From contig CANXME010000853.1 in NCBI GenBank assembly GCA_948144175.1, positions 1,054,001 through 1,118,000 on the forward strand: a DNA stretch of 64,000 nt, given 5' to 3'. Within the stretch, counting starts at the first letter, position 1. Each line of letters opens with the position of its first letter. The DNA is from Closterium sp. NIES-65 (Eukaryota; Streptophyta; Zygnematophyceae; Desmidiales; Closteriaceae). Below, in pieces: positions 14,338-63,200 of the stretch. The notes below the pieces were generated by a model. That model saw nothing but the letters and a program-made list of their open reading frames with translations, was not told where the DNA came from and searched no databases. Position numbers and translations under genes: made by a program.

Positions 14338-15790
14338 ATGGGCTTTAGAATCTTCCAGGGATTTAGACGGTTCTTTAGTCGACAAAAAAAACCAGCTTTA
14401 GAGTCTTGTCGAGCCCAGCTAGTGGATTCTTCCATAAACATAGAAGATTTTCCCGATGACATTCTCGCGAGGATCTTATTCCGTGACGAGCAACCCGCGC
14501 TTAGGAAGTCGGACCGTGACGAATCATTGGGCGTCCTTCCCTTGACGCTGAATGACCTTCGTTTGATTCGCATTGAGAAAGGGTCACTATTACCAACACC
14601 TCCTCCTTCTGCGAATCTTTGCGAAATTCTTCTCATCTCCGCCGTCTGCCGTCGCTGGAGCAGCCTTTCGCGAAACTGCGTCACCACGCTTCACCTCGCC
14701 GCCAACGACCAAGCCGCCGTTTGTAGCGAAAAACTCGCAGATTCTCTTGCTTCCTTCCCGAACCTCACCCACCTCCATATTAGCGACGGCTGCGTGAGGA
14801 CTCTGAATGACGCGTTTTTCGCTCGCCTCGCCTCATCATGCTGGAGTCTCAAGATTCTCCACATCGGAACCCCATTGGAGCCGGAGGATTCGTTTGAATT
14901 AGAAAAGGAAGAGCGCCCAATCACAGACGACGGCTTGGATCTGTTTTTCCAACGGTGTTCTCAGCTCGAGCAGCTTTCGCTCTACTGCCTCCATCCAGAT
15001 GTTGAGCTCCGCGCTTCCTTCTACCAGCTAGCGCACCTGCATACTCTCCTTCTCCCGAGTGTTTCAGTGCTCGAAGCTCCCGGGCTTGCAAACCTCACTT
15101 CGCTCACCCATCTTCACATCCTTCCCGGTCAAATATTGATCAATAAGCACCTCGACAGCCTCGCTCGCCTCCCAAGCATCGCCACTCTTTCCATGTCCGG
15201 CAGTGGCACACGATATTGCGGTCATTGCTAACAAGGATTTTGCTAAGATCGTTGGGGTCAGATAACTTTTGAGTCGGACGGACATGGAGATAAGCAGCTG
15301 CAGATAAACAGCACCTTCATGGCGACTTAGGATTGCTGCTGCCATGTCTCCGCGAGTTGACGTCTCACCGCAACCTAGATCGTAGCTCTGACTGGTGCTG
15401 CAGAAGCTGTTTCTCTCAGGCCTCCCAACTCCATGTTCCGGCTTTCTGCCCTGGAAACACTGGTGCTGCACAGCATGCCTCTTTCCCACCTCCCTGACTC
15501 CATCTGCCAACTCCCTGAAACCTCTGGGGTTGTACTACTTGCGTCGCCCTCTCTCTTTCTAAAGACAATCTTCTCGGAAATCTGCATCACCAGCAAACTC
15601 TGGTGCTTCCAGCTGCAGGAGAAATTCTGCTGCCTTGCTGCTCTTCAAACCAAGAGTCCCAAAGAACATCGAGCATCTGCATAAGCTGCACACGTTTTTC
15701 CTCAAAACGCTTCTCAAGCAACCGCATCTGCCGTCAATGTTTACTCGTCCTTTCTGACACAGCTTGAACTGAGCAACTGCAGGACTTTCG
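14338..15790 (+). pseudogene. F-box/LRR protein, paralogue 1, decayed 3' half
   Basis: An open frame of 297 codons starts at ATG 14338. It shows the two halves of an F-box, DFPDDILARILFR (about residues 38-50) and LLISAVCRRWSSLSR (about 98-112), separated by about 45 extra residues. Leucine-rich repeats follow (FPNLTHLHISDG, LEQLSLYCLHP, LANLTSLTHLHIL). The frame stops at 15229-15231. Beyond it, only broken pieces of the LRR region found in the paralogue at 23567-25449 can be followed: LSALETLVLHSMPLSHLPDS near 15440, then remnants at 15600-15790. The known family role is substrate choice for SCF ubiquitin ligases. A truncated protein could still be made, but the missing LRR half suggests a pseudogene. 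Confidence 0.7.
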
Positions 15791-16233: not shown

Positions 16234-19200
16234 TCAGGCAGCAATCTCCTCCCTCAAGGCACTGGTGCTGCTTCCAGCCCCGGCTGCTCTTCTGCGCTGA
16301 ACGTCCCAATTGTGCACCCTCGCTACAGTCACCTGCGATACAGCGGAAATATGGAAAAAAGGAGTAAGAGTTCTGGCAACAGAGATTATTTACGTATGTG
16401 CGATTTGGATGCCACATTCAATGGAAGAAAACACTCTTAAAGCCCGCTGCCCAAGTTGTTCAACCTTACTAAGGTTGACCATTGGGTGGTGGGGGAGGTG
16501 GAGAAAGAATAGTCGAGGTGTTGGGGGGGTGGGTGTAGTTGGTTTCGCCCAGATTTTCGCCACGCTTTGTTTTTCTTGCTGACACAGCAAACACCAGGGG
16601 CCAGCTCGTGTTCAGTTGCGAGAGTCCCATGTTGCACAGATAATAACATTGAAAGTTTCCCCCTGCTCACGTTTCGCAAACTCAGTGGAAGTGCGCTGGC
16701 CAATCAGATTTCTTCTCACAATCCGTAACCCTAGTTCGTGCAAGAAAGAAACCCAAAGCAACCCTCGATCAAGAATAGTAAGGTTGACCAGCGCGACCCG
16801 CAACTTGGGCCGCGGGCTTTAAAGAGGTTTAGACAGGGTGCCGTGCACTAAATGAAACTGTGTATCCTTGCTACAGTCACATTACAAAATGTGAAGAAGA
16901 AATGCACTGCGCAGTCACTTGTGTACTGTCAATAAACTCACCAGTACCACTAGATGTGAAAATATGGAGATACCGATGTCTTTGCCCTTAGATATGATAA
17001 CATGCTGATATTGTGTGTACTACTGTCAGTGGTACCACAAGATGTGTTGCGATCAAAGTACCATCTGTAACTGTGAGAATATGGAGATTGCCGAACTGTA
17101 TGTACCTCTGTGATGACATGGAGACCAGATGTCAACACTTCACCTCAGTAATGTTGATTTGATCTCGCACGAACAGCAGGTCACCATCGATGTTTGCAAG
17201 GCTGCTTGTGGCATTCTCCTCATTGCGCGCCAGCAGAGCCAGAGCCTGGTTGCATGGGTGGGAGGGAGGGGCAGGGCAGGCAGACACGTGCGCATGTGTG
17301 AAGGGGCACAGCAGGTCACCATCAATGGCTGCAAAGCTGCTTGTGGCATTCTCCTCATTGCGCGCCAGCAGAGACAGAGCCTGGTTGCATGGGTGAAAAT
17401 TGGTTGGAATTGGGAGAAGGGGAATGGAGTGAACTGACCCGAAAGAAGTACCAAAAAGCACATGAAAAGAAGTTTTAAGGGTTTATTGATTGAATCCAAC
17501 ATTTACAACGCTTACGCGTTAACATCATCAGCGCATGCTGGCATCATCAAGGCATGCATGCATGCATTCCCATCCCATCATCGCCCTTTGCTTTCACCTC
17601 CAGGTTCTTTTGACGCCCTTGGGAATAGAACTATCGCCACAATGAAACCGCGTGATGCTGTCACATGATGACGCCATGAAGCTGTCACATGATGACGTCA
17701 TGAAGCTGTCACATGATGACGTCATGAAGCTGTCACATGATGACGTCATGAAGCTGTCACATGTTGACGTCATGATGCTGTCACATGATCCACATCATCA
17801 CGTTTCCCTTGGCCCACCAGCCAGCCACACAGATACACCGAGTCAGTAGCCGTCACGCGTGAATATGCATGAATTTTATCTCGCTCTTGCGCAATCATGA
17901 TGCCATCAAAGGACATGCTGCTGACATCATGCTGCTGAAATCATGCTGCTGACATCATGCTGCTGACATCATGCTGCTGACATCATGCTGCTGACATCAT
18001 ACTGCTGAAATCATGCTGCTGACATCATGCTGCTGACATCATACTGCTGACATCATGCTGCTGACATTATGCTGCTGACATCATGCTGCTAACATCATAC
18101 TGCTGACATCATGCTTCTGACATCATGCTGCTGACATCATACTGCTGAAATCATGCTGCTGACATCATGCTGCTGACATCATACTGCTGACATTATACTG
18201 CTGAAATCATGCTGCTGACATCATGCTGCTGACATCATGCTGCTGACATCATGCTGCTGACATCATGCTGCTGACATCATGCTGCTGACATTATACTGCT
18301 GAAATCATGCTGCTGACATCATGCTGCTGACATCATGCTGCTGACATCATGCTGCTGACATCATGCTGCTGACATCATGCTGCTGACATCATGCTGCTGA
18401 CATCATACTGCTGAAATCATGCTGCTGACATCATGCTTCTGACATCATGCTGCAGACATCATACTGCTGAAATCATGCTGCTGACATCATGCTGCCAACA
18501 TGCTGCTGACATCATGCTGCTGACGTCATGTCCGCATCCTTCACTTCACACTCGTAATGCATGCACTCACTCGCGCTGATACCACAATTTGTTCTCATCC
18601 TCACCTCATAGCACCTCATCAAAGGGGTATTCGACCATGACATTTGCCCCCAGCCACAGGCACACCGAGTCTGCATCACACTTGCGTTGCATGCACTCAC
18701 TCACTCTGAAACCACATCTTGCTCGCATCCTCACCTCATCAAAGGGGTATTCCACCATGACATTCGCCCCCAGCCACAGGCACACCGAGTCTGCATCCTT
18801 CACGTCTGCTCGGGCGAACACGCCATCGGCTAAGACATAGTCCAAACGCACTTGCTGGCAGGAGCAGGAGCAGGAGTGGGGAGGGGAGGTAAAGAAGTTA
18901 ACCGTGAGCTACAAGCGTCCTTCACGTCTGCTCGGGCGAACACGCCATCGGCTAAGACATAGTCCAAACGCTGGCAGCAGGAACAGAGGGGAGCAGAGGG
19001 GGGGGGAGCAGAGGGGAGGGGAGGAGGAGCAGCAGAGGGGAGGGGAGGAGGAGCAGCAGAGGGTTGGCCCCCAGCCACACACAGGCACACCGAGCCCAGC
19101 CACACACAGGCACACCGAGCCCAGCCACACACAGGCACACCGAGCCCAGCCACACACAGGCACACCGAGCCCAGCCACACACAGGCACACCGAGCCCAGC

Positions 19201-22200
19201 CACACACAGGCACACCGAGCCCAGCCACACACAGGCACACCGAGCCCAGCCACACACAGGCACACCGAGCCCAGCCACACACAGGCACACCGAGCCCAGC
19301 CCGCATCCTTCACGTCCGCTCGAGCAAACACGCCATCGTCCAAACACACTTGCTGCCAGCACGGGAAGGGGGAAAAGGGAGGTAAAGAAGGAAAGAAGTC
19401 AACTTTGGCATATGCATAGGCGTCCTTCGCGTCTGCTCGGGAGAACACCCCATCGGCCAAGACATAGGCCAAACGCACTCGCTGCCAGCAGGGGAAGAAA
19501 GGTAAGGGGATGGAAGAAAAGAAGTTAACCGTTGAGCTACAAGCATCCTTCACATCTGCTCGGGCGAACGAACACCCTGTCAGCCAACACATAGTCCAAA
19601 CGCACTTGCTGGCAGCAGGAGGAGAGGGGATGGGAGAAGAGGAGAGGGGAGCAGAGAAGAGGAGAGGAGGAGAAGCAGACAGGCACACCGAGTCCGCATC
19701 CTTCAGGTCTGCTCGAGCAAACACGCCATCAGCCAACACATAGTCCAAACGCACTTGCTGCCAGCAGGAACAGAGAGGAGGAGAGAAGCATACAAGTTAA
19801 CCATTAGACCATAAGCATCAGCATCCTTCACGTCTGCTTGGGAGCACGCACACCCCATCGGCCAACACATAGTCCAAACGCACTTGCTGGCAACAGAAGG
19901 AGAGATGCGGGGAGGAAGTGAAGCTTAATCAACGGTGCAACATTCAGCATCCTTCACATCTGCACAGGCAAACACCACATCGGCCAACACATAGTCCAAC
20001 CACGTACTGCAAGTACGAACAGAAGGGAGGAGGGGATGGAGCAGAGAGGAAACGGGGAGTGAAGAGGTTAACCCGGTAGTCCAAACGAACTTGCTGCCAG
20101 CAAGAGAGGGGAGGAGAGATGCGGGGAGGAAGTGAATTCAGTCAACTGTGCAACATTCCGCATCCCCTTCGCATCTGCACATTCAATTCAAACACCCCAT
20201 CGGCCAACACATAGTCCAGTCCAACCACTAACTGCTCTTCCTCTCTCTCTTCTTTCGCCTTCCTCAGAGTGTAAAATTTCAAAATCAACCCTCACAAATC
20301 AGGCCTCGGGAATGAAATACCGGAATTTCAAATCTCAGGGATCAAACCATCAAACCGCCCTTCCTGCTTCTCCTCTCTCTTCTTCACCAGCGTCTGCACT
20401 GCAAAAGTCTTTGAGTGAACATCTGAGCACGTAAGACATTCATTCAGACGTATGAAACTTACCTGCTTCTCCTCCCGTTTCTTCACCAGTGTCTGCACGA
20501 TCTCCTGGCTCTTCTTTATGTCACACACCACTTGGGCGACATGAAAAGCCTACCCTAACTACTTTATCAGAACGTGCAGCAACTCATAGCCACTCCACCG
20601 TACCTGCTTTTCTTCCCGTTTCTTCACCAGCGTCTGCACAATCTCCTGGCTCTTCTTTATGTCTGGCAGCTTCGACTGGTGTGAGGGACAGGGAGGGACG
20701 AGAGGGACGAGAAGGAAGGGAAGGGAAGGGAAAGGAAGGGAAGGGAAGGGAAGTTAGGGGAAGGAAAGGGAAGGGAAGGGAAATAAATAAATAAACGGAC
20801 GAGAAAAGTAAGGAGAAGTGCAGAGGAAATAAGGAGAAGCAAGGAAGGGCAAGGAGAAGCAACTTGCGCGTTAATTTGGAGGGCCTTCTGGAGGAGAAAG
20901 AGAGGGCTTTAGCAGCAGCTGCTGCTGCTAGACGACTCTCTTTCTCTTCCGTAAGACCTTGTAAATCAACCCGCAGCTGTGCTGCTTCAGCAGGGCTTCT
21001 CTCGCACTCAGCACCACTCCTCACCAACTATGCCTGCCATGCCTCACATGCCTGCCATGCCTCACATGCCATTTCGGCTCGACCCAGGCCATTTTCGGCT
21101 CGACCCAGGCCATTTCGGCTCAACCCGAGTCATTTCGGCTCGACCCAGGCCATTTCGGCTCGACCCAGGCCATTTCGGCTCGACCCAGGCCATTTCGGCT
21201 CGACCCGGGCCATTTCGGCTCGACCCAGGCCATTTCGGCTCGACCCAGGCCACTTCGGCTCGACCCAGGCCATTTCGGCTCAACCCAGGCCATTGTGTGA
21301 CTGTAAGCCGTACCACTGCTGCCACCACTACCTGCAGCAGCACCAATGGTTGCCTCTCGGGCCATTTTCGGCTCGACCCAGGCCATTTCAGCTCGACCCA
21401 GGCCATTTCGGCTCAACCCCAGGCCATTTCGGCTCAACCCAGGCCATTTCGGCTCGACCCGGGCCATTTCGGCTCAACCCCAGGCCATTTCGGCTCAACC
21501 CAGGCCATTTCGGCTCGACCCGGGCCATTTCGGCTCGACCCGGGCCGCGATGCGTAGCAGGCCATTTCGGCCAGACCCCTAACCATGGGCCGAAACCGAA
21601 CCAAAATTGGTTCGGCGGGCGGAGCAGCCATGCCAAATCAGAGGTTCGGCCTGGGAGTCATACGAACCGGCCTGACCCGGGCCGGGCCAGCCTGACCCAG
21701 GCCGGACCAGCGTGCTCATTCTTGGTTAAACCATACCGGATGCCTAGGCATCGTTCATATGCTAATGCATACTGGAAATTTCTCTTCTGTGTGAGCGCAT
21801 ACCTGCAGGTCTCTCTTCTGGGTGAGCAGCTTGATTTCCAACAGCTTGTATTGCTGCATCCTGACAGGTGGGGATGGGTGGGGTGCGGTGAGATGCGGAG
21901 AGGAACAGTGAGAGAAAGGAAACTCGACTGATGGTCACTCAATGTAAAATATGTAATGCCCAGAGACAGATACGACAAACACATGGATAGCAGTGGCAGA
22001 AGAGGCAATAACAGACAATAACAGGAAGGGCAATGACAACAGAGGCAGCAGGAGTAGATTAAATAATGATATGACGATTTCAGGATACTATTCGTGTACC
22101 AACGTAAGGTGCAAATCCAGTGCGACTGAAAGGATGCTACACATCTAGTTCAAATGACATAATGGTGTTAATCCTGTACCATCGAAACAAAAAGACCGCA

Positions 22201-22650
22201 AAACGATGGTGCGATTCGAGAACCATGGAACGACGGAGGAGAGCGGCGGAGAGCGGCGGAGAGAGGAGAGCGAAGGAGAGGGGAGGAGAGGGGAGGAGAG
22301 GGGAGGAGAGGGGAGGAGAGGGGAGGAGAGCGAAGGAGAGCAGAGGAGAGCGGAGGAGAGCGGAGGAGAGCGGGGGAGAGCGGAGGGGAGCGGAGGAGAG
22401 AGCGGCGGAGAGCGGTCGAGCTGAGAAACAACAATGATCGAAATCCGAACGTAGATTACCTCTCCTCCAATGATTGTATGACACCTGGCGCTTCTCTGCC
22501 CGCCAAAAACGCCTCCACGTCAGCAACGAATTGCGCCACGGGAATGCCTCGTCGATGCTGCTCGCCGTCAGAAGCGGGCGACGAGCCGCTGAAACTTGCG
22601 GCATTCGCGGCGGCATCCGCGGCGGGTTTATCGATCTCCATGGCTTGCAA
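16234..22650 (-). CDS. PFD3: Prefoldin subunit 3 (VBP1-like), six exons, apparently intact
   Basis: Cytosolic co-chaperone subunit of the hexameric prefoldin complex, which delivers unfolded actin and tubulin to the CCT chaperonin. Exons on the - strand: 22650-22460, 21860-21803, 20675-20604, 18854-18735, 17245-17144 and 16332-16234 (stop TGA). All introns are GT..AG and all phases join. The product is 213 residues against roughly 190-200 in plants. Marks: RRGIPVAQFVADVEAFL (exon 1), QQYKLLEIKLLTQKRDLQ (exon 2), LPDIKKSQEIVQTL (exon 3), the family signature SVCLWLGANVMVEY (residues 130-143, exon 4), LLFVRDQINITE (exon 5) and VTVARVHNWDVQRRR (exon 6). The helical N- and C-terminal parts should form the coiled coil. 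Introns are swollen by satellites, a MITE and truncated copies of exons 3, 4 and 5. Exons 3 to 5 were chosen from the copies that keep both splice sites and the full family motif. Confidence 0.93.
16441..16818. mobile_element. MITE with TTAA target duplication in prefoldin intron 5
   Basis: Ends are inverted: AGCCCGCTGCCCAAGTTG at the left, and the reverse complement of the right end reads AGCCCGCGGCCCAAGTTG. Both sides are flanked by TTAA (16437-16440 and 16819-16822). A TTAA duplication is typical of piggyBac-type transposition. Length is 378 bp with no coding capacity. Confidence 0.75.
17309..17380 (-). repeat. Truncated upstream echo of prefoldin exon 5
   Basis: Copies the splice acceptor and the first two thirds of exon 5 (ALSLLARNEENATSSFAAIDGDLL) but lacks FVRDQINITE and the donor. 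In transcript sense it lies just before the real exon (17245-17144). Confidence 0.85.
17652..17795. repeat. 24-bp tandem repeat, about 6 copies
   Basis: The unit contains GCTGTCACATGATGACGTCA and lies in prefoldin intron 4. Each unit carries the CRE-like palindrome TGACGTCA or a near match. Confidence 0.9.
17895..18530. repeat. 14-bp satellite, roughly 40 copies
   Basis: Unit GCTGCTGACATCAT with small variants (ACTGCTGAAATCAT, GCTTCTGACATCAT), filling much of prefoldin intron 4. Confidence 0.95.
18615..18676 (-). repeat. Truncated downstream echo of prefoldin exon 4
   Basis: Copies the 3' part of exon 4 (DADSVCLWLGANVMVEYPFDE) up to a weak donor GTGCTA. In transcript sense it lies after the real exon. 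Confidence 0.85.
18906..20221 (-). repeat. Array of truncated upstream echoes of prefoldin exon 4
   Basis: About nine diverged copies of the 5' half of exon 4 with its splice acceptor (peptide RLDYVLADGVFARADVKDA). They lie near 18909-18972, 19308-19362, 19421-19492, 19546-19618, 19699-19768, 19821-19893, 19949-20012, 20070-20100 and 20160-20220, separated by purine-rich spacers. None keeps the complete exon and donor; the real exon is at 18735-18854. Confidence 0.85.
19070..19300. repeat. 25-bp minisatellite derived from prefoldin exon 4, about 9 copies
   Basis: Near-perfect head-to-tail units. Read on the - strand each contains CTCGGTGTGCCTGTG, which is the exon 4 sequence coding SVCLW. 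The array appears to have grown from an exon 4 fragment. Confidence 0.9.
20364..20522 (-). repeat. Two truncated downstream echoes of prefoldin exon 3
   Basis: 20463-20522 copies DIKKSQEIVQTLVKKREEKQ and a good donor GTAAGT. 20364-20400 copies only VQTLVKKREEKQ. Both lie after the real exon 3 (20675-20604) in transcript sense, and both lack its acceptor and its first residues SKLP. Confidence 0.85.
20692..20790. repeat. GGGAA-type simple repeat
   Basis: Purine-only run of GGGAA/GGGAC units in prefoldin intron 2. The complementary strand would give the intron a pyrimidine-rich stretch before exon 3. Confidence 0.85.
21064..21560. repeat. 20-bp minisatellite, about 20 copies
   Basis: Unit CATTTCGGCTCGACCCAGGC with variants (CTCAACCC, CCCGGGC), interrupted at about 21297-21360 by unrelated sequence. 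It lies in prefoldin intron 2 and is open in several frames on both strands, but it is not a gene. Confidence 0.93.
22229..22420. repeat. 10-bp GGAGAGGGGA / GGAGAGCGGA repeat
   Basis: Tandem purine-rich decamers in prefoldin intron 1, between exon 1 (ends 22460) and exon 2. Confidence 0.9.
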
Positions 22651-50582: not shown

Positions 50583-51935
50583 TCAAACTCTTGATGTCAC
50601 ACCTGATACAGTTTCACCTGATTCTTGCACAGCAGCTTCTGTTTCAGCAGCTTCTGTTACACCTGCTCCGGCTACAGGTGTTTCCGCTACAGGCGATCCA
50701 GCTACATCCGTACTTCTTACAGATGTCCCTGCTACAGCCGCTCCTGTTACAGCTGCGCCTGTTACCCCTGCTGCTGCTCCAACCGCTCCAGACTCACCCC
50801 TCCTTGCTGCTCCCTCTCCTCCTGCCATTCTCCTCCTCTCACCAGCCGTCTCTGGCCAAGGAATGATGGACCCAAACAAGAAGTGCTGCATTATAGGCAC
50901 CTTCTCCAGCACTTCCGCTCTGTACATTTTAAGCATTCCGCTGTTCACCTTGTTCCAATTCGGTACACCGCTTATGTCGTTGATCATGGGCGAGTGCTCC
51001 GCTAAAGGCCCCTTCTTCACCTTCTTAACGAACACCACGCTGGAAAAATACAGATACTCCTCTGCGAAATTCTCCAGAATGTCCGGATTAAGGATCGACT
51101 TAGGACGGAGGTATTTATGACCAATTAGTTGCGAGGAGCCGAAGATGAAAGGCAGGAAGTGGTAGTCGTCTAAGCCCCACACCCCGTGCGACCCGGCGGG
51201 TTCCAGCCAGTACGTCAGCTGCAGCTTCCGCATTAAGGCGAGGTATTTAACAAACACGCGGGAAACTAACGCTTGATAGTCGTCAGGGACTAGGAGGCCG
51301 AGCCGCACTAAGCACATCAGCCACGCCGCGAAATTCGTCTCGTGACCCGTGCCGAAATCTATCCTGGTCCAGTTGCCGAAGCTGTCAGCTAGGTACGGAA
51401 AGGTCTCCCCCACAGCTGCTTTGAGATTCTCGGGGAAGATCATATCAGCCACGAGGTTCGGGCCCCGTTCCTGTAACCGGTCCTGCCAGGTTCGGTAAGA
51501 AGGGTTACCGTACCGAAGCAAGGTCTCGCTTGGCGGAATTTCGTCAACCCATGAAATCAGCGTCTCGAGGAAAGCGACAATCTTCTCGCACGTCGGCGAC
51601 ACGTGGCACGGATCCGAAATCTTCTTCCCTTGAATCGACTCGCTCAGCCCTACGATGAAACCTAGAAACCACCTCCCGGATTCCCCCTCCAGAAACGACT
51701 GAGTATCCCCGGTAGAAGCAATCCGTTTTTGGGGAATACAAAACCGATACGGCGGATCCAGTACTGGAACAAAAAGGGCCTTGGGCAACGGAACGAGGTT
51801 GCCAGGAACCCGCTGGTTCGGCGCGCTTCCTGGCTGCTGCGGAGGTCCTGCAAAGGCCCAAGGCGCGACGCCGCCGGGAATATCTGGTAGATTAGGAGGA
51901 GGGCCGAACCCGCCACTATATCCTCCGGGATTCAT
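50583..51935 (-). CDS. PTPA: Serine/threonine protein phosphatase 2A activator (PTPA), intronless
   Basis: PTPA is a cytosolic/nuclear protein that activates PP2A catalytic subunits and has peptidyl-prolyl isomerase activity in known members. The 450-residue frame shows the family core without a break: ETLLRYGNPSYRTWQDRL (about 137-154), GNWTRIDFGTGHETNFAAWL (187-206) and GVWGLDDYHFLPFIFGSSQL (251-270). The core ends near 365. The first 45 residues are glycine/proline-rich, and the last 80 are rich in Ala, Thr, Val and Glu (GVTGAAVTGAAVAGTS), which is not typical of the family. The start MNPGGYSGG was chosen over an in-frame ATG 38 codons upstream because the family core lies well downstream and the upstream part is basic and unlike it. 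The gene has no introns, unlike its neighbour, so it may be a retrocopy. It is divergent from the methyltransferase gene. Confidence 0.92.
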   Translation of the reverse strand: MNPGGYSGGFGPPPNLPDIPGGVAPWAFAGPPQQPGSAPNQRVPGNLVPLPKALFVPVLDPPYRFCIPQKRIASTGDTQSFLEGESGRWFLGFIVGLSESIQGKKISDPCHVSPTCEKIVAFLETLISWVDEIPPSETLLRYGNPSYRTWQDRLQERGPNLVADMIFPENLKAAVGETFPYLADSFGNWTRIDFGTGHETNFAAWLMCLVRLGLLVPDDYQALVSRVFVKYLALMRKLQLTYWLEPAGSHGVWGLDDYHFLPFIFGSSQLIGHKYLRPKSILNPDILENFAEEYLYFSSVVFVKKVKKGPLAEHSPMINDISGVPNWNKVNSGMLKMYRAEVLEKVPIMQHFLFGSIIPWPETAGERRRMAGGEGAARRGESGAVGAAAGVTGAAVTGAAVAGTSVRSTDVAGSPVAETPVAGAGVTEAAETEAAVQESGETVSGVTSRV

Positions 51936-53064
51936 GGCGACAGTTGCGAGCGGGGGTCTAGGGGTACAGTAATGGTTCCGAGAGGGTGTCTCGGAGATTC
52001 GTCTAAATTTCAACCGCAGGACTCGTCGAGGGCTAAGGTGGGTCTGCAACTGGCTTGAGCTTTCGCGACACGGTCAATGGAGACGGAGAGGAATGTTGTC
52101 GAAAGTACAATAAGGTGAAGAAGAACACCGTGAGTTAAAAACAGCGATGTTTTGAACTTGAGTAAGGGAGTTTATGCCGTACCAGCTGAGAACGAGACTA
52201 GCGTTTATGTTTTCTTCTCCCCATATATTCAGGGTCTAGAACTGCCGATAGCTATGCTATAGAGTAGTAGCAGAGAGAAGGACTCTTCCAATATAGAGAT
52301 GGGATCGTGCGCAGCATCCCTTCAGGACAGTCACAAACTCACCGCTAGCTCACCATTTCATACATGCTGTTTAACCAAGAGGTGTAGCAATTCGCTACTA
52401 AACAATTTCGTAGTCTCCAGTGTAGGGTATACCGATCTGTCAACGTGCCATGTGGAACGAAAGTACTGGTGCTTCGCACGCGTCACCTCCATAACCACAG
52501 GAAAAGCAGGCAAGTCCTCCCTAGGGCCCAACTGCCTTGCCACGCCAGCATGCGAAGCCTCGAAGAACCGTCATTGCTGACGGTAGCTACTCACCGAGCC
52601 TCGTCTCATACCGTACCAGTCGCCAGACTTTCATTCTTGGTTCGATTTCAGGCTCGCGAAGTCTCATTGATTCCTATCAGCCGTCAGATCCTCTCACAAA
52701 CCAATTTGGGGCGAGGTATGTACAGTAGGGAGGTATCTAGCTCGTTTGGTATGAAGGCGTGTCGATCTGGGTACAGCTACTTGCAGTGGTTGACTACGGT
52801 GGGGTACCATTATTGCTTTGTCTGTTTTCTGACACGTGAATAAGAAATAAACTCTTGTGACATGTCCCGTTTCTCCAATATTATCGAATACGCTTAGGGT
52901 TTGACTCCTTGCACTGTCTTCAGTCTGTGATCATTCTTAGCATTCTGGTTCTGACAAGAAAAGCAGTTGTACCCCACAAGAGCTTTGTGCTTTCCTCCAG
53001 GAGAAGTGGCTGCGGCTGTTTCTGGTTGAAGATCGCGAAAAGGAAATCACCAGTGACAATCATC
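51936..53064. other. Shared upstream region of PTPA (-) and the methyltransferase gene (+)
   Basis: About 1.1 kb between divergent starts. Short open frames on both strands (for example 52299-52580) show no recognisable protein. It probably holds both promoters and perhaps a 5' non-coding exon. Confidence 0.45.
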
Positions 53065-56000
53065 ATGGGATCGCTTTTGCGACAGTCGTACGATCTCGCA
53101 GTGCAGGCAGGACTGCGTACGATGGAGGCGAACGTGATCCCCGACCGCGCTCTGCGACCAGCTTGCCGTTACCTCATGTCGCAGCGTATCGCCATGTCGC
53201 GAAAGGAGACCGTGGAGGAACAGCTTCAGGACCTGGTCGAATTCGCAGAGTGTGAGTGCATCGAAGAGGCCTCATGCTCCTCAGAAGGATCCGTGAGACA
53301 TTTCGATTGAAGCATCGCGTACAAATTCAGGTCCTGGTCGAATTCGCTGAATGTGAGTGCATTTAGAGGTCTCATGCTCCTCAAAACGATTCTTAAGAAT
53401 CTTCTAACATCGCGTATAGCTTCAGGACGTGGACGGGTTTGCAGAGTGTGGGTACATTGCTGAAAACCTCCGCATTTCTGAGACCACCTGCTGAGAGTAA
53501 TGGTGAAGTTGCGTAAGCGACTAGCTGCGACTCGCTGTTCAGCCGTCAATTCGATTTCCAGCAGCAGCGAACGAGCGGCATTACAAAGTTGCGTTTTATT
53601 CCATGTTTCTGTCCGTCTATCCAACACCCAATTCCATTTGATCAGCTCTCAAGTCAATGCCCATCGCTCTCAGCACGGCAGCAGCCAACGAGCAGCACTA
53701 CGAGGTCCCCACGGAGCTCTTCCAGCTGTGCCTGGGGAAGCGACTTAAATACAGGTGAGACCCTTTGAGTGCACTGCAGCTTTGGCTGACGATCGTTGTG
53801 GTGAATCCAGTGCAGGTGAGTCTCAACGGAGAGCAGCACTACCCACAGAGCTCCCAACAGAGCTCTTCCAGATGTGCCTGGGGAAGCGACTCAAGTACAG
53901 GTGGGAATCAATGCGCGTGGCTCAGGTGAGCGTGAGCCCTACCCACTGATTGCAGGTGAGCGTGAGCCCTACCCACTGATTGCAGGTGAGCGTGAGCCCT
54001 ACCCACTGATTGCAGGTGAGCGTGAGCCCTACCCACTGATTGCAGGTGAGCGTGAGCCCTACCCACTGATTGCAGGTGAGCGTGAGCCCTACCCACTGAT
54101 TGCAGGTGAGCGTGAGCCCTACCCACTGATTGCAGGTGAGCGTGAGCCCTACCCACTGATTGCAGGTGAGCGTGAGCCCTACCCACTGATTGCAGGTGAG
54201 CGTGAGCCCTACCCACTGATTGCAGGTGAGCGTGAGCCCTACCCACTGATTGCAGGTGAGGGAGACCCAGTGAACTTGCGGCTGCGTGCAGGTGAATCTC
54301 TGAGCAGGCTCGTCTTAGTGCAGCCAACGAGCAGCACTACGAGGTCCCCACGGAGCTCTTCCAGCTGTGCCTGGGAAAGCGACTCAAGCACAGGTGAGAC
54401 CCAGAGGTAGGTGCACCTACAGCTCAATGCAGCAACCAGCAGCTCCGTCAAGTCCCAACAGAGCTCTTCCAGCTGTGCCTGGGGAAGCGACTCAAGCACA
54501 GGTGAGATGCAGGTGGACCAGTGCAGGTGAGACCCAGAGCAGGTGAGACCCAATGCAGGAGAGACCCAGAGCAGGTGAGACCCAGGGAAGGTGAGACCCA
54601 GTGCAGGTGAGACCCAGAGCAGGCGAGACCCAGTGCAGGAGAGACAGACGATGAGCTCTTTCCGCTTCCCACTTGTAATCTACCTCTTTGCAGAGCTCCC
54701 TCCTCCTCATCTCATCTTAACTGACCCCCCACCCCACCCCAGACCCAGCCGCCCTCCGCTCTCGTCATCTCGGCTGGGCTTCTCTCTCTGGGGGCCTTTT
54801 CCGCAGCTGCTGCTGCTCCCCCATGGCGAAGACCACTCTGGATGAAGCAGAGGAGCTGATGCCGGCCATGTACTGCAAGAGTGGCAGCTTTCGGCGCAGC
54901 TGGCTTGCTGATGACTGAGCTTTGAGCCTTTTAAGAGAGGACAGCTGGCTTGCTGATGACTGAGCTTTGAGCCTTTTAAGAGAGGACAGCTGGCTTGCTG
55001 ATGACTGAGCTTTGAGCCTTTTCTGTGCCCTTCCCCTCCCCTACCAGCTGCTGCTACTTCCCCACGGCAAAGGCCACTCTGGATGAAGCCGAGGAGCTGA
55101 TTTTGGCCATGTGTACTGCGAGAGGGCTCAGCCCGCGGATGAGCAGCACGTGTTGGAGCCGAGCCGAGGTCCCCCTTCCCTACCAGCTATGTGGATTTTA
55201 CTTTTGAGAATTCTCAAATGTAAAATCCACACGGATGAGCAGCACGTGCAGGAGCCCCGAGCCGAGGTCTCCCTTCCCTACCAGCTGCTGTCATGGCAGG
55301 ACGTGCTGAGTGTGCTCTTCCCTCCTCTGCCATGTATTCCCCCGTTTGCCTCCCCCGCAGCTGCTGCTACTTCCCCACAGCCAAGACTACTCTGGATGAA
55401 GCAGAGGAGCTGATGCTGGCAATTTACTGCGTGCGGGCGCAGCTGGTAGACGGACAAGATGTCATGCCCCCCCACTTCCCTGTGTGTTTTGAGTCGACTC
55501 AAAACATGCCCCCCCACTTCCCTCCCCTTCTATCCCCCTTTGACTCCAACGCAGCTGCTGCTACTTCCCTTCCCCCAAGACCACTCTGGACGAAGCAGAG
55601 GAGCTGATGCTGGCAATGTACTGTGAGAGGGCTCAGCTGGCAGACGGGCAGGATATCTTGGAGCTGGGGTGCGGGTGGGGCAGCCTGTCGCTGTACATGG
55701 GGGAGAAGTACCCCAACAGCCGCATCGTTGGGGTGTCCAACTCTAGCACGCAGAGAGCCTACATTGAAGGCCAGTGCAAGTAAGCCCCATTTCGCTTCCT
55801 CGTAAATGGTCCGTTTGTTCCCTTGTTACAAGAGCCTGATTGGAGCTGGGGTGCGGGTGGGGCAGCCTGTCGCTGTACATGAGGGGGAAGTACCCCCACA
55901 GCCGCATCGTTGGGGTGTCCAACTCGAGCACGCAGAGAGCCTACATTGAAGGCCAGTGCAAGTGAGTCGCCTTGAGGGGTAGCTTCTTTCTCTCCCTGTG

Positions 56001-59000
56001 TTTCTCTCACTTTGAGTGGTGCGAGGAGCTGGGGTGCGGGTGGGGCAGGCAGCCTGTCGCTGTACATGGGGGAGAAGTACCCCAATAGTCGCATCGTGCG
56101 GGTGTCCAATTCGAGCACGCAGAGAGCCTACATCGAGGGGCAGTGCAAGTGAGTGGGTGGGGCAGCCTAGCGTGCTGAAGCTGACGGGTGGGTGGGGCAG
56201 CCTAGTGTGCTGAAGCTGAGGGGTGGGTGGGGCAGCCTAGTGTGCTGGAGCTGAGGGGTGGGTGGGGCAGCCTAGGGTGCTGGAGCTGAGGGGTGGGTGG
56301 GGCAGCCTAGTGTGCTGGAGCTGAGGGGTGGGTGGGGCAGCCTAGTGTGCTGGAGCTGAGGGGTGGGTGGGGCAGCCTAGTGTGCTGGAGCTGAGGGGTG
56401 GGTGGGGCAGCCTAGTGTGCTGGAGCTGAGGGGTGGGTGGGGCAGCCTAGTGTGCTGGAGCTGAGGGGTGGGTGGGGCAGCCTGTCGCTGTACATGGGGG
56501 AGAAGTACCCCAACAGCCGCATTGTTGGGGTTTACATTGAGCACACAGCGAGCCTACATTGAAGGCCAGTGCAAGTGAGTCACGTTGTTAGTGCCAATGA
56601 CTTTGCCTTGGCATCAGCAACACATCAGCAGGTATTTCCAACTCCCGCTCGTTTCACAGCATGCCCATTATCAGGAACCACTTCTGCTCGTTTCACAGCA
56701 TGCCCATCTGAGTCACATGGGGAATCCACACAAGTGAGTTGCCTTGGCATCAGCGGCGTGCATTGCAGCATCCCATCTGCAGGTGTCTCTAACTCCTGCT
56801 CTTTTTACTCACAGCATGTCCGTCTCCCAAAAGAGTCTGGTGCACTCTCTCTCTTCCAGCAAGAAGCCGGCAACTTCCGTTGCTGATGGGCAACGTGCGA
56901 ATTATCATAGCAGCATTGTATAGGTGCTTCTAACAACTCCCGTAAATCCTCTCAATAGTCTTCCTTGCACCCCCTCTCCTGTAATGGCAGTGGGGCGTAA
57001 GCAGCATGTGCAGTGCATTATCTCTTTGACGGCTTCATAAGTCTCTTTTCTACTTCCACTCGCTTTTCTATGCCAGGAAGCGGGGCATCAATAACGTGCG
57101 AATCATCACAGCAGACATGAACACGTTTCAGGCAGAGGGCACCTTCGATAGAGTGGTGTCTGTTGAGATGTTTGAGGTGAGTAAGACGGGGTAACACCGT
57201 AGTGGCAGTTGGCGTTTGGAGCACTAGAGAGACGTACAACGTTCGGTACACTGGAAGAAATATTCAAGCAGAGGGGACGTTTGACAGGATGGTGTCTGTT
57301 GAGATGTCCGAGGTGCGTGCGTTGGGGTAGGTGTGGCTGTGTGGAGGGTTGGTTGGCAGGAGTGAGTGACAGAGTGTGAACCGAATGCGCGTCATCACTG
57401 CAGACATGAGCTCGTTTCAAGCAGAGGGGGCATTTGACAGAGTGGTGTCTGTGGGTTTGTGTGGCTGTGTGGAGGGTTGGTTGCTGCGGAAGGTGGCTTT
57501 AGTAGACCTCGTTCTGTCTCACAGACGGCCCTTAGTGTTGATACGATGACCATCTCATGACCCCCACCTCCCCCACCTCTTCCACCTCTCCAACATCCCG
57601 CACAGCATGTGAGGACTTTTGAGGCGCCCCAAAAAAACCGCGTGAACTGAGACGACTTTCGAGGCGTGTCAAAAGACCTCCCCCTCCTCTTCCACCTCCC
57701 CAACATCCCGCACAGCACGTGTGGGCTACCATGGCCCCCTTCCTCCTTCCTTCCTTCCTTCCTTCCTTCTCATCATGTCTCAAGGACGGTCCTCTGTGTT
57801 GATGCGGTGTCCAGATGCTGCTGCTTGACTTGGCCTCGATTCTCACTCAATTCACCTCATTGTGTCTCTTCCTCTCGCCCTACTCTCTTTCCTATCTCCC
57901 GCCCTCTCCCTCCCTCTTTTTCAGCACATGAAGAATCACCAGCTGCTGCTGGAGAAGGTGGCTTCATGGATAGTAGCTTCAGTTAACCCCATCATCTCTT
58001 TCACCCTCACTCACACTCTCTCTCTTATCCCCCTCTCTCCCCCACAGCACATGAAGAACTACCAGCTGCTGCTGAAGAAGGTGGCTTCAGTATACCTCAT
58101 TCTGTGTATCACAAGCCTTTGGTTTTACTCATCGGCATGTCTCTTATACCCTCCCTCCCCCTTCCTCACATACAGCACATGAAGAACTACCAGCTGCTGC
58201 TGAAGAAGGTGGCTTCAATAGTCCTCATCCTGCCCCTCTCCTCCCCTTGCTTATCAAACTATCTTATGCATTGATCCATTGACACTACGTGCCCTCTCCT
58301 CCCGCTCCTCCCCCACATACAGCACATGAAGAACTACCAGCTCCTGCTGAAGAAGGTGGCTTCCGCAGCAAGCTTCATTATGTGTCTGACGAACAGCCAG
58401 TTGTATTGTTCCAGTAACGTAACGTCCCCCCCTCTATATCTCTCCCTTTTCGTTCCCCCACAGCACATGAAGAACTACCAGCTGCTGCTGAAAAAGGTGG
58501 CTTCCTGGATGAAGCCAGAGGCGCTGCTCTTCATTCACATCTTCACACACAAGGACTTTGCATACCACTTTGAGGTATTAGCACCAAGAACATGCGTGTA
58601 GGTGACTATGCAACTAGAACAGATCACAAGAACTTTCACTGAACACGTTGCCTGTTTTTATTTTTCAGGTTGGGGGACCAGCGATGGCATGGCGCTGGCA
58701 CAATGCCTTTTTAATGGTATTTATTTATCATTGATTTTTTCTTTCTTCAGGATGCGGGGCCTGACGACTGGATGACTCGCTACTTCTTCACGGGGGGCAC
58801 GATGCCGGCTGACAAGCTGCTGCTCTACTTCCAGGACGACCTGAGCATCGCCAACCACTGGTGCCTGAACGGCACTCATTACCAGCGGACTAGGTATGCG
58901 TTTGTTGTGTGGTTCTGCATGGTTCTCTGTGTGTGCATTGGTGCGAGTGACAAGCTGCTGCTCTACTTCCAGGACGACCTAAGCATTGCCAACCACTGGT

Positions 59001-59595
59001 GCCTCAATGGGACTCACTACGAACGGACCAGATGGGTGTGAGGGCGTGAGGTTCTGTGTGTGCATGTGGGTAGTTCTGTGTGCATGTGGATAATTGTGTA
59101 AATGGGTTGAAGGGGTGTGCTCTACTCTGGGCTTCTGAACTAGACTCACTACCAAAGAGAAAAATGCGAGGTGTGAAGATCCCTTGCAAAGGTCAGTGGG
59201 TATGGTGCATGCATGCATGTGGGTCCGATTACTGGGTTGCAGGAATCTGCAGGGATGTGTTTGTCAAACAGTGGATGCACATGTTTGCATGTATTCTCTC
59301 CTGCCCCATTCCCACACCACCATTACACACTAAAAGTTTCTTGAAACATAGTAAAAAGCCCTTTCCTTTTCGCCTTTACTCGTGTTTGTTGCACAGTGAG
59401 GCGTGGTTACACAACTTTGACGCCAACATTGTGAAGCTCCGGCCGATCCTAGCGGAGACGTACGGCAAGGAAGCGGCGACCAAGTGGACGGTGTACTGGC
59501 GCACATTCTTCATTGCCGTGGCTGAGCTCTTCGGCTACTCCAAGGGACAAGAGTGGATCATTTCCCACTACCTCTTCCAGAAGAAGCAAGCATAA
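53065..59595 (+). CDS. Coclaurine N-methyltransferase-like enzyme, seven exons, apparently intact
   Basis: SAM-dependent methyltransferase of the plant coclaurine-N-methyltransferase / cyclopropane-fatty-acid-synthase-like family; the substrate here is unknown. Exons: 53065-53251, 53646-53754, 55555-55779, 57077-57176, 58464-58574, 58751-58893 and 59397-59595 (stop TAA). All introns are GT..AG and all phases join, giving 357 residues, the usual family length. Motif I for SAM binding is [14 protein letters not shown] (133-146). Others are [18 protein letters not shown] (exon 3), [11 protein letters not shown] and [11 protein letters not shown] (exons 4-5), [15 protein letters not shown] (exon 5), [22 protein letters not shown] (exon 6; first 20 residues conserved) and [14 protein letters not shown] at the C-terminus. 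Where exons have several copies, the complete copy with both splice sites was taken. Introns 1 to 6 carry truncated copies of exons 1 to 6. Confidence 0.92.
53323..53470 (+). repeat. Two truncated downstream echoes of methyltransferase exon 1
   Basis: Each repeats the last 25-30 bases of exon 1 (CAGGTCCTGGTCGAATTCGC and GTTTGCAGAGT) with donor GTGAGT or GTGGGT. The first also repeats the start of intron 1. Confidence 0.8.
53828..54501 (+). repeat. Three truncated downstream echoes of methyltransferase exon 2
   Basis: 53828-53900, 54320-54393 and 54429-54501 repeat the 3' half of exon 2 (GAGCTCTTCCAG to ACTCAAG(T/C)ACAG) with donors GTGGGA, GTGAGA and GTGAGA. All lack the 5' part [10 protein letters not shown] and its acceptor. 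Confidence 0.88.
53926..54255 (+). repeat. 30-bp minisatellite, 11 exact-length copies, each starting GTGAGC and ending TTGCAG
   Basis: Each unit begins GTGAGCGTGAGCCC and ends CCACTGATTGCAG, so every unit boundary reads CAG/GTGAGC. A splice-donor-like start, a CTGAT branch-point-like element and an acceptor-like end recur every 30 bp inside intron 2. Confidence 0.95.
54500..54650 (+). repeat. GCAGGTGAGACCCAG short repeat
   Basis: Irregular tandem copies of a 15-16 bp unit matching the exon 2 donor region (CAGGTGAGACCC), following the last exon 2 echo. Confidence 0.85.
54807..55450 (+). repeat. Three truncated upstream echoes of methyltransferase exon 3
   Basis: 54807-54880, 55048-55150 and 55361-55450 each follow an acceptor (CCGCAG, TACCAG, CCGCAG). 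They copy the first part of exon 3 ([20 protein letters not shown]), but none reaches the SAM motif. A 45-bp direct repeat occurs three times between the first two (about 54894-55022). Confidence 0.88.
55842..56574 (+). repeat. Three truncated downstream echoes of exon 3 and an exon-derived 35-bp minisatellite
   Basis: 55842-55961, 56024-56148 and 56468-56574 copy the 3' half of exon 3 ([18 protein letters not shown] to EGQCK) with donor GTGAGT. Between the last two, 56150-56480 is a tandem array of about eight 35-bp units containing GGGTGGGGCAGCCT, the exon sequence coding GWGSL. Confidence 0.9.
57265..57450 (+). repeat. Two truncated downstream echoes of methyltransferase exon 4
   Basis: 57265-57312 copies [16 protein letters not shown] with donor GTGCGT. 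57379-57450 copies [22 protein letters not shown]. Confidence 0.85.
57925..58365 (+). repeat. Four truncated upstream echoes of methyltransferase exon 5
   Basis: 57925-57969, 58048-58090, 58176-58217 and 58323-58365 each follow a pyrimidine tract and CAG and copy [14 protein letters not shown]. The complete exon is the fifth copy (58464-58574). Confidence 0.92.
58948..59034 (+). repeat. Truncated downstream echo of methyltransferase exon 6
   Basis: Copies the 3' part of exon 6 ([20 protein letters not shown] to HYERTR). The donor is changed to AGATGGGT, so it is probably not usable. Confidence 0.9.
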
Positions 59596-59845
59596 TCTGC
59601 AAGTGTCGCACTTTATACGCTAACACAATGCAACGGCAATGGAGCAAAGAAAAAAAAATATTTGATTGTGAATGCCGCTATTGGGCAGCTTGTAATTTTG
59701 TTCGATGTTTCTTCATTCTAGTCAACTGAGGACAACCCACACACAGCATGTATATCCTTGGTGAATATACAAAGCATGTGGAAAATCATAAACCTGATTT
59801 CTGTTTTCTATGAGCACATACCCTACGTTTTATTCATCTACGTTC

Positions 59846-60280: not shown

Positions 60281-63200
60281 ATGAAGGCAAAACTCAAGGA
60301 AGAAGGAGCAAAGGATATGGGATTGCCCTCCTTCCTAGTGAGACTCACCTCTAGGAACAAAGCTGCCCTAATCACTCGCCTCACGCTTCCATCAGGACAA
60401 CATACGTCTGACCTGCGCGCCATGTCAGACCTCTGTTCCACCTTCTACGAGAACCTCTACAAGGGAGGCACATGTAACACTACTAAGAGTTCCTTTTGGG
60501 ATCACATTTACCCCTCTTCGCTGCCAGCCCGCATGTGCACCAGAATTGCAGCACCCATCTCCCTCTCTGAAGTCAAGACAGCAATGTCAACCCTCTCCAA
60601 AGGAAAAACGCCGGGACACGACGGTCTAGCTGGGGATTTTTACCGCACACACAGCTCCACCCTCGTTCCTGCCCTCCATTCCTTATTCTCTTCAATAGAA
60701 GCCAATCAATCTATGCCTACCGCAAATCAATGCTGATGGGATGCACTGTCCTCATTTCTAAAAAAGCGGACGCGACTTTTGTTGAGAACCTCCGCCCAAT
60801 CACACTCATGACGTCTGATTACAAGATCCTCGCGATTTGCTTGGCAAAACGACTCCAACTTACCCTTAGACGTATCATTCATCCTGCGCAGGTTGCCTTC
60901 ATTAAGGGACGTCGCATCGGCGACACCATCAACGACTCGCTTGACCTTATGGAATGGGCCAAAGCTAAAAACCTACCACTGCTCATGCTTACCGTGGACA
61001 TCAAAAAGGCCTTTGACATGGTTGATCGCGAATTCATGTACACATGTATACGCCATCTCGGCATTCCACAACCATTCATCGCTTGGGCGAAGCTCCTGCA
61101 CAATGACGCACATACCCAGATCTTAGTAAACAACCTGGCCGGGCGCCCACTCCCAGTTCTCTCTGGTGTACGTCAAGGCTGCCCCTTGGCTCCCCTCCTC
61201 TTCATCTGTGTCATTGAAGTGCTACACCGACACCTCTCTGTCTACCTCCCCAGCTTCACCTTCGCCCAAGCCCAGCGCCGGTTGGCAGCATGCTACGCTG
61301 ACGATATGTCCCTATTCCTCAATTATGGAGAAGAACTGCAGTCAGCCATGCATCACTTACAGTCCTTCGCAGAAGTGCCCGGCGAGCATGCTAATTGGGC
61401 CAAATGCTCCATTCATCTTATAAATATCTCGGCAACCACATTACCGCCTGACTGCCCCATCCCTGTTCGCCAACATAACGAGGCAGAAAGGATCCTGGGT
61501 ATATACATCCAAAACGATAACCCTGGAGCTGCCACATGGGATATAGCTCTCACCAAGGTCAAAGGTACTGCTTCCTGTCTAGCGAAGTTACACGCCATAT
61601 CTACATGTCGTTCTGCCCTTTCCTCCGAACGGCTCGTGTCCCTCTTCGGTTAGGCGGACGCTTTCAACCTCCTCCTGATAAAGCATCCAAATACAAAGAG
61701 GAAGGCATGGCTATGAGATTCATCCCGACCGCATATTATTTAATACAAGGCGGGATGGAGGCGTCGGCGCTATAAAACCCTCCCCCTACTTACAGGCCCT
61801 GTAGGTCCAACGAGCTGCCAGTCGCTTTGGCCCCACCCCCCTGGAAGATATTGCACGATCATGCTGACCGCTCCCCTTTGGCCTCCATTGCTTCCTTGCG
61901 CAGAAAGACATCCTGAAATTCCTACCTCAACATCTGCCAGCGCGGGCCGTCGCGGAGCTAAAAGCAGTCCTTGAACTACCCTGTGCTATCCACCCTCCCC
62001 GACTTGAACCATAGGTACTGATGGCGCCTTCAACAGACTCATTAAAAGGAAAGATGGCCTTTCCTTCGGACGCATTAAAGGAGACAAGTTCTTACTAACA
62101 CAAGAAGTTCGAGTGGGCAACATCCTTCACCGCACACCAACTGGTGCTCGCGAGCTCTCCGAAGACGAGATTCTCTCCAAATACCCCACCACGAACTTTC
62201 CGGGGGGGCGCACTCTCCTTAAAGCCATATACAAAGCCATACCCGACGAATGGTGGACAGTACTCTGCTCCTTTATTCCATCCTCATCCTACCTATCAGT
62301 GGACGACTGGGTTATACGGGCGAGACAGATAGCAGGGACAGAGCGACGGGTGTTACAGTTCCGGGAACTACTCTCCAACGGCACGGCTCGTCTCCGCAGC
62401 TTCGAGGTCGACGAATGCCGCCGAGTAGCCGCCACCTCCTCTGGAAACTGTATATGTCACGTTAACGAAAATCATCCCCGTATACGTAACAAACGGCTGA
62501 TATGCTGGGACTTTCTGCTCCGATGCCGGTCTAGGCAGCAGACTCGACTTTCTCCAACATGCCACCTCGCTAGCCAGCCTCAGACGCCTAAGCTACTCGG
62601 CTCTACCGCTGAACCACCTCGACAAATGGAACGAGATTCTTCCCTCTCCGCTCACCGCCCTACCCTCCTTGAAGCAACCATTTTTATAGGAACAGCCTGT
62701 CAAACTCATATGCTATAGTCTGTGTAGGCTGTAGTGGGGTAGACAATATGGGGTACAACACTTTTAGGTTTTCCTACTTGTACCCACCTGCTTGCTAGTT
62801 CATTCATTCCTCATTTCTTCACACAGCCCAGTCGACAAAGAGACGTGCTACTTCAACTACACACGCTGTCTCTCTCGTGTGGTGCGTGATTTCGCTTCTC
62901 GGCCTCTGGAAACATCTGCCCGTGCTGCTCCAACGACTGCGTCGAGACCCTCACCCATATCTTCACAGAATGTGGAAACGCTCCTACCATCACAACGGCA
63001 CTTCAACGTGCTGCGAAAGACCATCTTGGTGTCTCAATCTCAGCAGAAGTTGTCACTATTTCCTCTCAACTCATCGGCCGGGAGCTGTGCCCCATGGAGC
63101 CTACTAGTGGGAGCTGTTGCTAAAACTCTATGGAACGAGAGGTGTTCAGAAATCTATGACAACGCACACTCATCTGAGATATCAACCCTACATAGGGTGC

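Follow-up and report, generated by a model that had tools for sequence, protein, structure and literature searches.

In a 64,000-nucleotide (nt) window of the genome of the green alga Closterium sp. NIES-65 (Zygnematophyceae, Desmidiales; contig CANXME010000853.1, positions 1,054,001 to 1,118,000 of the forward strand), many exons of a methyltransferase gene and of a prefoldin subunit 3 gene are accompanied by truncated copies of themselves in the adjacent introns, which we call echoes. In both genes, direct local copies carry a single splice junction, taken from the exon beside them. The copies have a fixed polarity and recur in unrelated genes, beyond one gene or region. A fresh junction-crossing duplication is present in the genome, the associated tandem arrays are unstable, intron homology has been lost, and exon-echo differences carry a codon signature. 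We regard as probable, if well short of certain, an explanation in which duplications recurrently crossed exon-intron junctions, were tolerated as echoes with one splice site, and had their exon parts alone renewed by gene conversion from functional copies.

The methyltransferase gene (53065-59595, forward strand) has seven exons whose GT-AG limits give an open frame. Its protein has Pfam matches to CMAS and methyltransferase families, it resembles plant (S)-coclaurine N-methyltransferase-like proteins, and it is 100% identical to a 541-amino-acid NIES-65 model over 75% of the query. Each exon with 40 nt on either side was compared with positions 52500-59700 on both strands using blastn; exon 2 entered this search with a later start than 53646, the upstream position to which it was moved to fit the NIES-67 protein. 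The search returned 18 clear, direct, truncated echoes around exons 1-6 (E values 8e-7 to 1e-56), in agreement with an earlier sequence-only reading, which had counted about 18 around six of the seven exons, all in one orientation. Exon 3 has the most echoes, three on each side; exon 5 has four, exon 2 has three, exons 1 and 4 have two apiece and exon 6 has a single one. Blastn against the same range found none for exon 7. Two weaker echoes (53561-53584, E 8e-4; 56892-56913, E 3e-4) and exon-3-like minisatellite units are present in addition to the 18. No inverted exon copy was found in the gene by the both-strand search, and the sole inverted pair reported there is a 21-nt palindrome at 55190-55231.

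Which part of the exon is copied depends on the side, and 17 of the 18 echoes obey this polarity. All seven upstream echoes (exons 3 and 5) consist of an acceptor and the 5' part of the exon, as the sequence-only reading had stated, and exon 5 does present four truncated upstream copies followed by the full exon. The description of downstream echoes as exon 3' part plus donor needs qualification: ten of the eleven hold the 3' part, but the exon 4 echo at 57386-57452 is interior, stopping 13 nt short of the exon end, and the donor GT is missing from the exon 6 echo. Towards the splice site, 14 of the 18 echoes cease to be homologous no more than 10 nt from the junction, not deep in the intron. 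Inside the exon, the downstream units of exon 3 share a breakpoint, starting at +103 to +105, and the exon 5 units terminate at, or slightly beyond, GGTGGCTTC. An additional degenerate exon 5 echo with an intron tail lies at 57482-57517; along 36 nt it agrees with 58070-58105 at 86%.

The prefoldin subunit 3 gene (16240-22641, reverse strand), which is the second dense region of the window self-comparison (16-22 kb), has the same echo architecture and the same polarity. Exon 3 is followed by two echoes, exon 4 is preceded by eight and a fragment and followed by one, and exon 5 is preceded by one. The polarity rule fits 12 of 12 echoes, with the short fragment and a weak match (17821-17857, E 0.004) left uncounted; these exons were compared on one strand only. 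A 25-nt minisatellite (19070-19301) splits the exon 4 upstream array and matches exon 4 too.

Recurrence was measured within the NIES-65 genome. A search with the TCP-1 family (PF00118) gave 93 matches, the best 30 of which were taken as loci, and each locus was aligned to its own 3-kb surroundings. Echoes were present in 23 of these 30 loci before gene copies were collapsed. With one locus kept per gene-copy group (grouped by the analyst), 16 loci representing 11 genes remained, and echoes occurred in 11 of the 16 loci and 9 of the 11 genes; locus L043 overlaps the exon stretch of L020, and merging the two gives 11 of 15. Random control queries of the same length gave direct hits in 25 of 240 cases and inverted hits in 8 of 240, so that echoes are far more frequent at TCP-1 exons than direct hits in controls (Fisher P 3e-7 for 11/16 vs 25/240). 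The control pool consisted of the window outside both genes plus about 98 kb of flanking contig of unchecked gene content, and the overlap rule for controls was slightly stricter than that for exons, a difference that by the observed distances would drop no exon locus. Inverted hits were absent among the collapsed TCP-1 loci. The 30 TCP-1 echoes fall into 18 exon-side families and, judged by midpoint, all 14 upstream echoes come from the 5' side and all 16 downstream echoes from the 3' side. In nineteen of them, no more than 15 nt separate the echo from the near edge of the profile match, and none contains the far edge; edges were measured against the profile match, and local alignment trims poorly matching echo ends. 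Neither of two loci of a proteasome gene gave an echo when aligned to its 3-kb surroundings. As a separate observation, proteasome-family matches to 98-159 and then to 115/116-159 at G000:C2059:200398-200758 and C2400:3667845-3668209 suggest a downstream exon echo.

The sequence-only reading had proposed a search of other genes, and the pattern is indeed present in prefoldin and in these TCP-1 loci; in the TCP-1 sample, exon fragments are commoner near their own exon than the controls lead one to expect. Its idea of a recurring process tied to splice junctions holds as to recurrence across genes. The tie itself does not follow, because one-sided survival and visibility could concentrate echoes at exons equally well, and repeats also occur in 25 of the 240 controls.

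A second copy of the methyltransferase gene, on another contig (L009, G000:C2153:175000-184900), has the same echoes. The NIES-65 sequence is a long-read assembly of 876 Mb from a haploid-phase sample, and more than half of 5,400 shared ortholog groups are duplicated in this strain (PMC10407611, in part). Outside a repeat-rich middle stretch (95.9%) the two gene copies are 99.4-99.5% alike, and 9 of 1074 exon positions differ, per base no fewer than in the introns. In the second copy the 30-nt, 35-nt and 45-nt minisatellites differ in length from those of the window by +750, -210 and +45 nt, respectively.

Several origins were considered and rejected. Chance is excluded by methyltransferase echo E values down to 1e-56, and assembly artefact, which the sequence-only reading had named as a danger, by the same array in the second gene copy on the other contig and by translated pieces of it, seen by eye, in a NIES-64 gene model. 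Inverted or snap-back templated insertion was rejected on the zero count of inverted exon echoes in the methyltransferase and TCP-1 genes (prefoldin having been compared on one strand only), and full-exon duplication on the partial cover of the exon by the echoes. An introner-type insertion was rejected since, of the candidates that were scored, a 134-nt exon 3 query hit none but its own gene, in both copies, spacers not having been searched genome-wide; in the window self-comparison no spacer family stood out. A processed retrocopy was rejected, the echoes being local, derived from single exons and furnished with intronic splice-site bases.

Short local tandem duplications across exon-intron junctions would create such echoes, with units of about 95-190 bp where these were measured, and truncation that depends on the side is the trace expected of a junction-crossing tandem duplication. 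One locus (L048) holds a fresh example, in which an exon 3' part plus intron is repeated at a spacing of 174 nt with 96.3% identity over 298 nt; a third copy follows the pair, its exon part 93.5% alike over 123 nt. Both halves of the unit, exonic and intronic, are homologous in L048, in echo A of methyltransferase exon 1 and in part of the prefoldin exon 4 array. In the explanation we prefer, the survivors would be those events in which the true exon keeps both splice sites and the copy gets one; a copy with one splice site would survive because it is unrecognised as an exon, which would fix the polarity, and other duplication geometries would damage the message. Unequal exchange or slippage would then multiply units with the same breakpoint and spawn minisatellites. 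Of ten minisatellite arrays, three match an exon or a donor at P 0.005 and a fourth does so at 0.045, so that an origin from exon sequence is clear for three of the ten arrays only. Each unit of the 30-nt array at 53923-54260 also runs GT...CAG and then GTGAGC, which yields about 11 AG|GTGAG sites in the array, and we take these sites to resemble recursive splice sites.

The intron flanks of the echoes are a different matter. For 28 window echoes, 45 nt of adjacent intron, with 6 nt at the splice site skipped, were compared with the corresponding intron at the exon and with shuffled sequence. Mean identity was 0.892 in the exon part, and 0.547 in the adjacent intron vs 0.511 after shuffling. 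In the nine echoes whose exon part is at least 0.93 identical (93-98%), the flanks scored 0.51, as did shuffled sequence, and none of the nine was significant. Among TCP-1 edges, 17 of 20 had no further homology, and many ended at a visible AG or GT.

Differences between exon and echo are unevenly spread over the codon. At positions 1, 2 and 3 they number 40/671, 25/671 and 132/660 in the window genes (short echoes being added here to the 28 of the flank test) and 65/908, 55/911 and 203/910 in the TCP-1 sample. The ratio of third to first plus second positions is 2.03 in the window genes vs about 0.8 for neutral change in a single lineage; the observed ratio was reached in 0 of 400 simulations at equal mutability. 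CpG hypermutability was rejected as the cause, non-CpG sites differing at 6.6, 6.2 and 21.6%. Columns polymorphic between echoes show the same structure (25/171, 22/174 and 54/171, P 2e-5). Changes private to one echo number 25/23/41 by codon position (third share 0.46, P 0.013 vs one third), and those private to the exon 3/0/13. Frameshifting indels occur in 10 of 27 echoes examined, so those echoes are not coding now.

Plain recurrent tandem duplication followed by neutral decay, with the concentration at exons reflecting visibility and one-sided survival, would by itself give the geometry, the direct orientation, the fresh duplication at L048 and the minisatellite instability, and it suits the prefoldin exon 4 array, in which echo-private changes (3/7/3) lack a third-position excess. 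It predicts homologous introns and codon-blind differences, and as we read the sequences both predictions are contradicted: by the random flanks of the nine best-conserved echoes, by a third-position ratio about 2.5-fold above neutral, and by codon structure even between echoes. Exon-confined copying or some other homogenising step thus seems needed, and we consider duplication and decay alone unlikely. The sequence-only reading had likewise derived the echoes from junction-crossing tandem duplication; polarity and L048 uphold that proposal, but it is incomplete where intron halves are not homologous and differences not codon-blind.

According to the explanation that adds renewal, intron halves would vanish fast and exon halves would periodically be renewed by conversion from functional exons, the donors probably including diverged gene copies. 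Such conversion would keep the exon halves alike and lend their differences a third-position signature, and the loss of intron halves together with the codon signature fits this proposal, because exon halves would be recopied from functional, partly diverged exons. Differences are clustered into tracts in 20 echoes (longest identical runs sum to 551 vs 455 +/- 30, P 0.0016). The echo at 55840 differs between the gene copies at four sites; in L009 each of these sites shows the exon base and the donor of the echo stays echo-like, which is probably the trace of one exon-to-echo conversion; at one site, 55926, the non-exon base stands in all three downstream exon 3 echoes of the window. Exon 3 itself has four substitutions between the gene copies, all inside a 31-nt stretch; two of them agree with echo states and the other two do not, and we take the cluster as a hint of echo-to-exon import. 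We offer only tentatively the wider idea that, genome-wide, the echo layer is in two-way exchange with the exons, being duplicated, overwritten and sometimes feeding variants back, and so forms a local archive of past exon states beside near-functional splice sites.

A stop of homology at splice junctions would also be expected if renewal were templated by spliced RNA through cDNA-mediated conversion. The edges within 10 nt of the junction agree with this, and copia-type reverse transcriptase frames are present within the window. Several echoes nevertheless share intron sequence past the junction (about 40 nt at 53326, 15 nt at 17395 and 38 nt at 55317), and DNA conversion bounded by diverged introns is expected to leave the same edges; we hold a cDNA template to be improbable.

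A number of observations weigh against our explanation. Seven of the 28 window echoes keep intron homology above chance (0.05), the other 21 not, and 11 of the 30 TCP-1 echoes are interior, reaching no edge of the profile match. The distance of echoes is weakly related to their divergence (28 vs 17 pairs, P 0.145). The case for conversion consists of one good event and indirect statistics, and three of the four sites in echo 55840 could be explained as private mutations of the window echo. Neutral simulations with 2-fold third-position mutability give P 0.025-0.06, and single-lineage neutrality would be rejected only where the mutation rate of third positions is below about 2-fold that of the other positions. 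Finally, in ten gene-copy pairs the echoes differ at 6/2944 positions and other non-exon sequence at 86/24188 (P 0.24), with 2/2904 in exons; the count of 86/24188 omits the pair L034/L035, which probably contains a misaligned array, and the exon and echo counts retain it, the full count outside exons and echoes being 272/26354. L034 and L035 are near-identical TCP-1 copies with 186 differing aligned positions outside exon and echoes, probably reflecting a differing repeat array.

Deposited gene models disagree on splicing at the echoes. By eye, the 541-amino-acid NIES-65 methyltransferase model translates exon 3 echoes and minisatellite units, including part of 53923-54260, and echo translation probably explains this model. 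Several of these echoes are translated in the NIES-64 model too, again by eye, and the NIES-67 model is clean; echoes common to the NIES-64 and NIES-65 models predate that strain pair or are shared between them. Where the window exon reads PSPK, NIES-67 reads PTAK, and so do two of the three echoes upstream of exon 3; the PTAK-bearing echoes may have preserved an older state. For prefoldin, the NIES-65 and NIES-53 models pass over the echoes. Automatic annotation in the Closterium group may insert echo exons, which calls for caution.

Selection on the echoes, for instance as decoy or regulated splice sites or as alternative exon parts, would be in keeping with conserved exon halves beside unconserved intron halves, with the GT or AG retained in many echoes (by eye) and with the translation of some in the NIES-65 and NIES-64 models. 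Frameshifts in 10 of 27 echoes and the prefoldin models that skip them speak against it; constraint on an RNA signal is not expected to track codon positions, and the short-term echo rate in the gene-copy pairs is indistinguishable from that of introns. We therefore rate selection as slightly less probable even than a cDNA template. Decayed remnants of whole, tandem-duplicated (mutually exclusive) exons would show third-position divergence and diverged introns, as observed. The echoes are, however, partial, with the missing end set by the side and the far edge in 0 of 30 TCP-1 echoes, and truncated units of one array have the same breakpoint and yet show third-position differences, which makes this origin highly improbable.

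Table 1. Exons, echoes and minisatellites of the two genes (window coordinates).
Feature	Position	Strand	Remarks
Methyltransferase gene
Exon 1	53065..53251	+	
Exon 1 downstream echo A	53326..53390	+	3' part and donor; ~40 nt of intron homology
Exon 1 downstream echo B	53418..53457	+	
Exon 2	53646..53754	+	start from NIES-67 protein
Exon 2 downstream echo A	53831..53906	+	
30-nt minisatellite, 11 units	53923..54260	+	CAGGTGAGC...; +750 nt (25 units) in second gene copy
Exon 2 downstream echo B	54320..54402	+	56-nt exon-identical tract, then 4 differences
Exon 2 downstream echo C	54429..54507	+	
16-nt minisatellite	54508..54645	+	CAGGTGAGACCC, matches exon 2 donor
Exon 3 upstream echo	54802..54881	+	acceptor and 5' part
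Exon 3 upstream echo	55045..55159	+	
Exon 3 upstream echo, closest to exon	55317..55466	+	
Exon 3	55555..55779	+	
Exon 3 downstream echo A	55840..55966	+	3' part and donor
Exon 3 downstream echo B	56025..56153	+	8/9 exonic differences at third codon positions
35-nt minisatellite	56153..56483	+	matches exon 3 from +104 (inner breakpoint of echoes); -210 nt in second copy
Exon 3 downstream echo C	56456..56579	+	
Exon 4	57077..57176	+	
Exon 4 downstream echo A	57263..57329	+	
Exon 4 downstream echo B	57386..57452	+	interior piece, ends short of donor
Exon 5 upstream echo 1	57922..57971	+	
Exon 5 upstream echo 2	58038..58088	+	
Exon 5 upstream echo 3	58172..58216	+	
Exon 5 upstream echo 4	58319..58364	+	
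Exon 5	58464..58574	+	
Exon 6	58751..58893	+	
Exon 6 downstream echo	58948..59031	+	donor GT lost; 8/9 differences third-position
Exon 7	59397..59595	+	no echo found
Prefoldin subunit 3 gene
Exon 1	22460..22641	-	no echo found
Exon 2	21803..21860	-	no echo found
Exon 3	20604..20675	-	start from proteins P0121/P0122
Exon 3 downstream echoes, two	20355..20522	-	20460-20522 and 20355-20399
Exon 4 upstream array, 8 echoes and fragment	18912..20218	-	most units 120-150 nt apart
Exon 4	18735..18854	-	
Exon 4 downstream echo	18565..18677	-	3' part and donor
Exon 5 upstream echo	17308..17395	-	
Exon 5	17144..17245	-	
Exon 6	16238..16341	-	approximate limits; tblastn 16288-16341, stop by eye and from P0122 C-terminus

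Upstream of the methyltransferase gene lies a PTPA (PP2A activator) gene (50583-52049, reverse strand), a single open frame that is apparently intron-less; the window self-comparison showed no short-range repeats near this single gene. In NIES-67, PTPA and the methyltransferase carry adjoining gene numbers (CLOP_g24376/24377), which suggests a conserved neighbourhood. Retroelement frames (copia-type, integrase/RNase H, RVT_1) are found between the host genes at 7041-12002, 41363-47290, 3576-5810, 33055-34506 and 60730-61653. Leucine-rich-repeat frames that look related by eye lie on both sides of the prefoldin gene (14338-15231 and 23687-25449, forward strand), and of these only 24385-25449 clears the Pfam cut-offs. 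Rfam gave no match at gathering thresholds.

One-sided self-copies in 11 of 16 TCP-1 loci turn otherwise rare duplication events into a population of natural experiments. They allow the rate of junction-crossing duplication, and the choice of the true site among near-identical decoys, to be measured, and they bear on how intron gain might start and on whether gene conversion respects exon limits. Our literature search, judged from titles and abstracts, recognised no Closterium report of exon-edge echoes.

The closest known case is the potato RdRp gene, in which the duplicated stretch starts in the 3' part of an intron and ends in the 5' part of the exon that follows; the same paper also notes an 83-bp duplication within an intron (PMC4974935, in part). 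As in Closterium, the upstream copy there has an acceptor and an exon 5' part, and the elementary event is the same. Unlike Closterium, potato shows a single event, and one copy became a spliced exon and intron (PMC4974935, in the portions used here). In Closterium, by comparison, we read from the sequence dozens of copies, on both exon sides, in several genes, the homology of most being exon-only. The present case resembles intron gain by tandem duplication in that an intragenic tandem duplication supplies splice signals, and differs in that the Closterium segments span existing junctions. Tandem exon duplication and mutually exclusive exons are local direct exon copies inside one gene; the Closterium copies differ in being truncated, with side-dependent polarity, and are not complete exons. 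Minisatellites in introns are a known kind of tandem array, and compared with these the echoes have longer units, few in number and tied to a single edge of an exon. Within the Closterium psl. complex, genes are widely duplicated, including in NIES-65, and the hybrid strain NIES-4550 shows recombination between sequences of different origin, which is what conversion from diverged copies would need (PMC10407611, in part). The variation described in the passages of that paper covered here concerns whole genes and segments, and they do not mention intronic exon fragments. The Closterium echoes are thus a known elementary event, here repeated on both sides of many exons and combined with exon-only homology.

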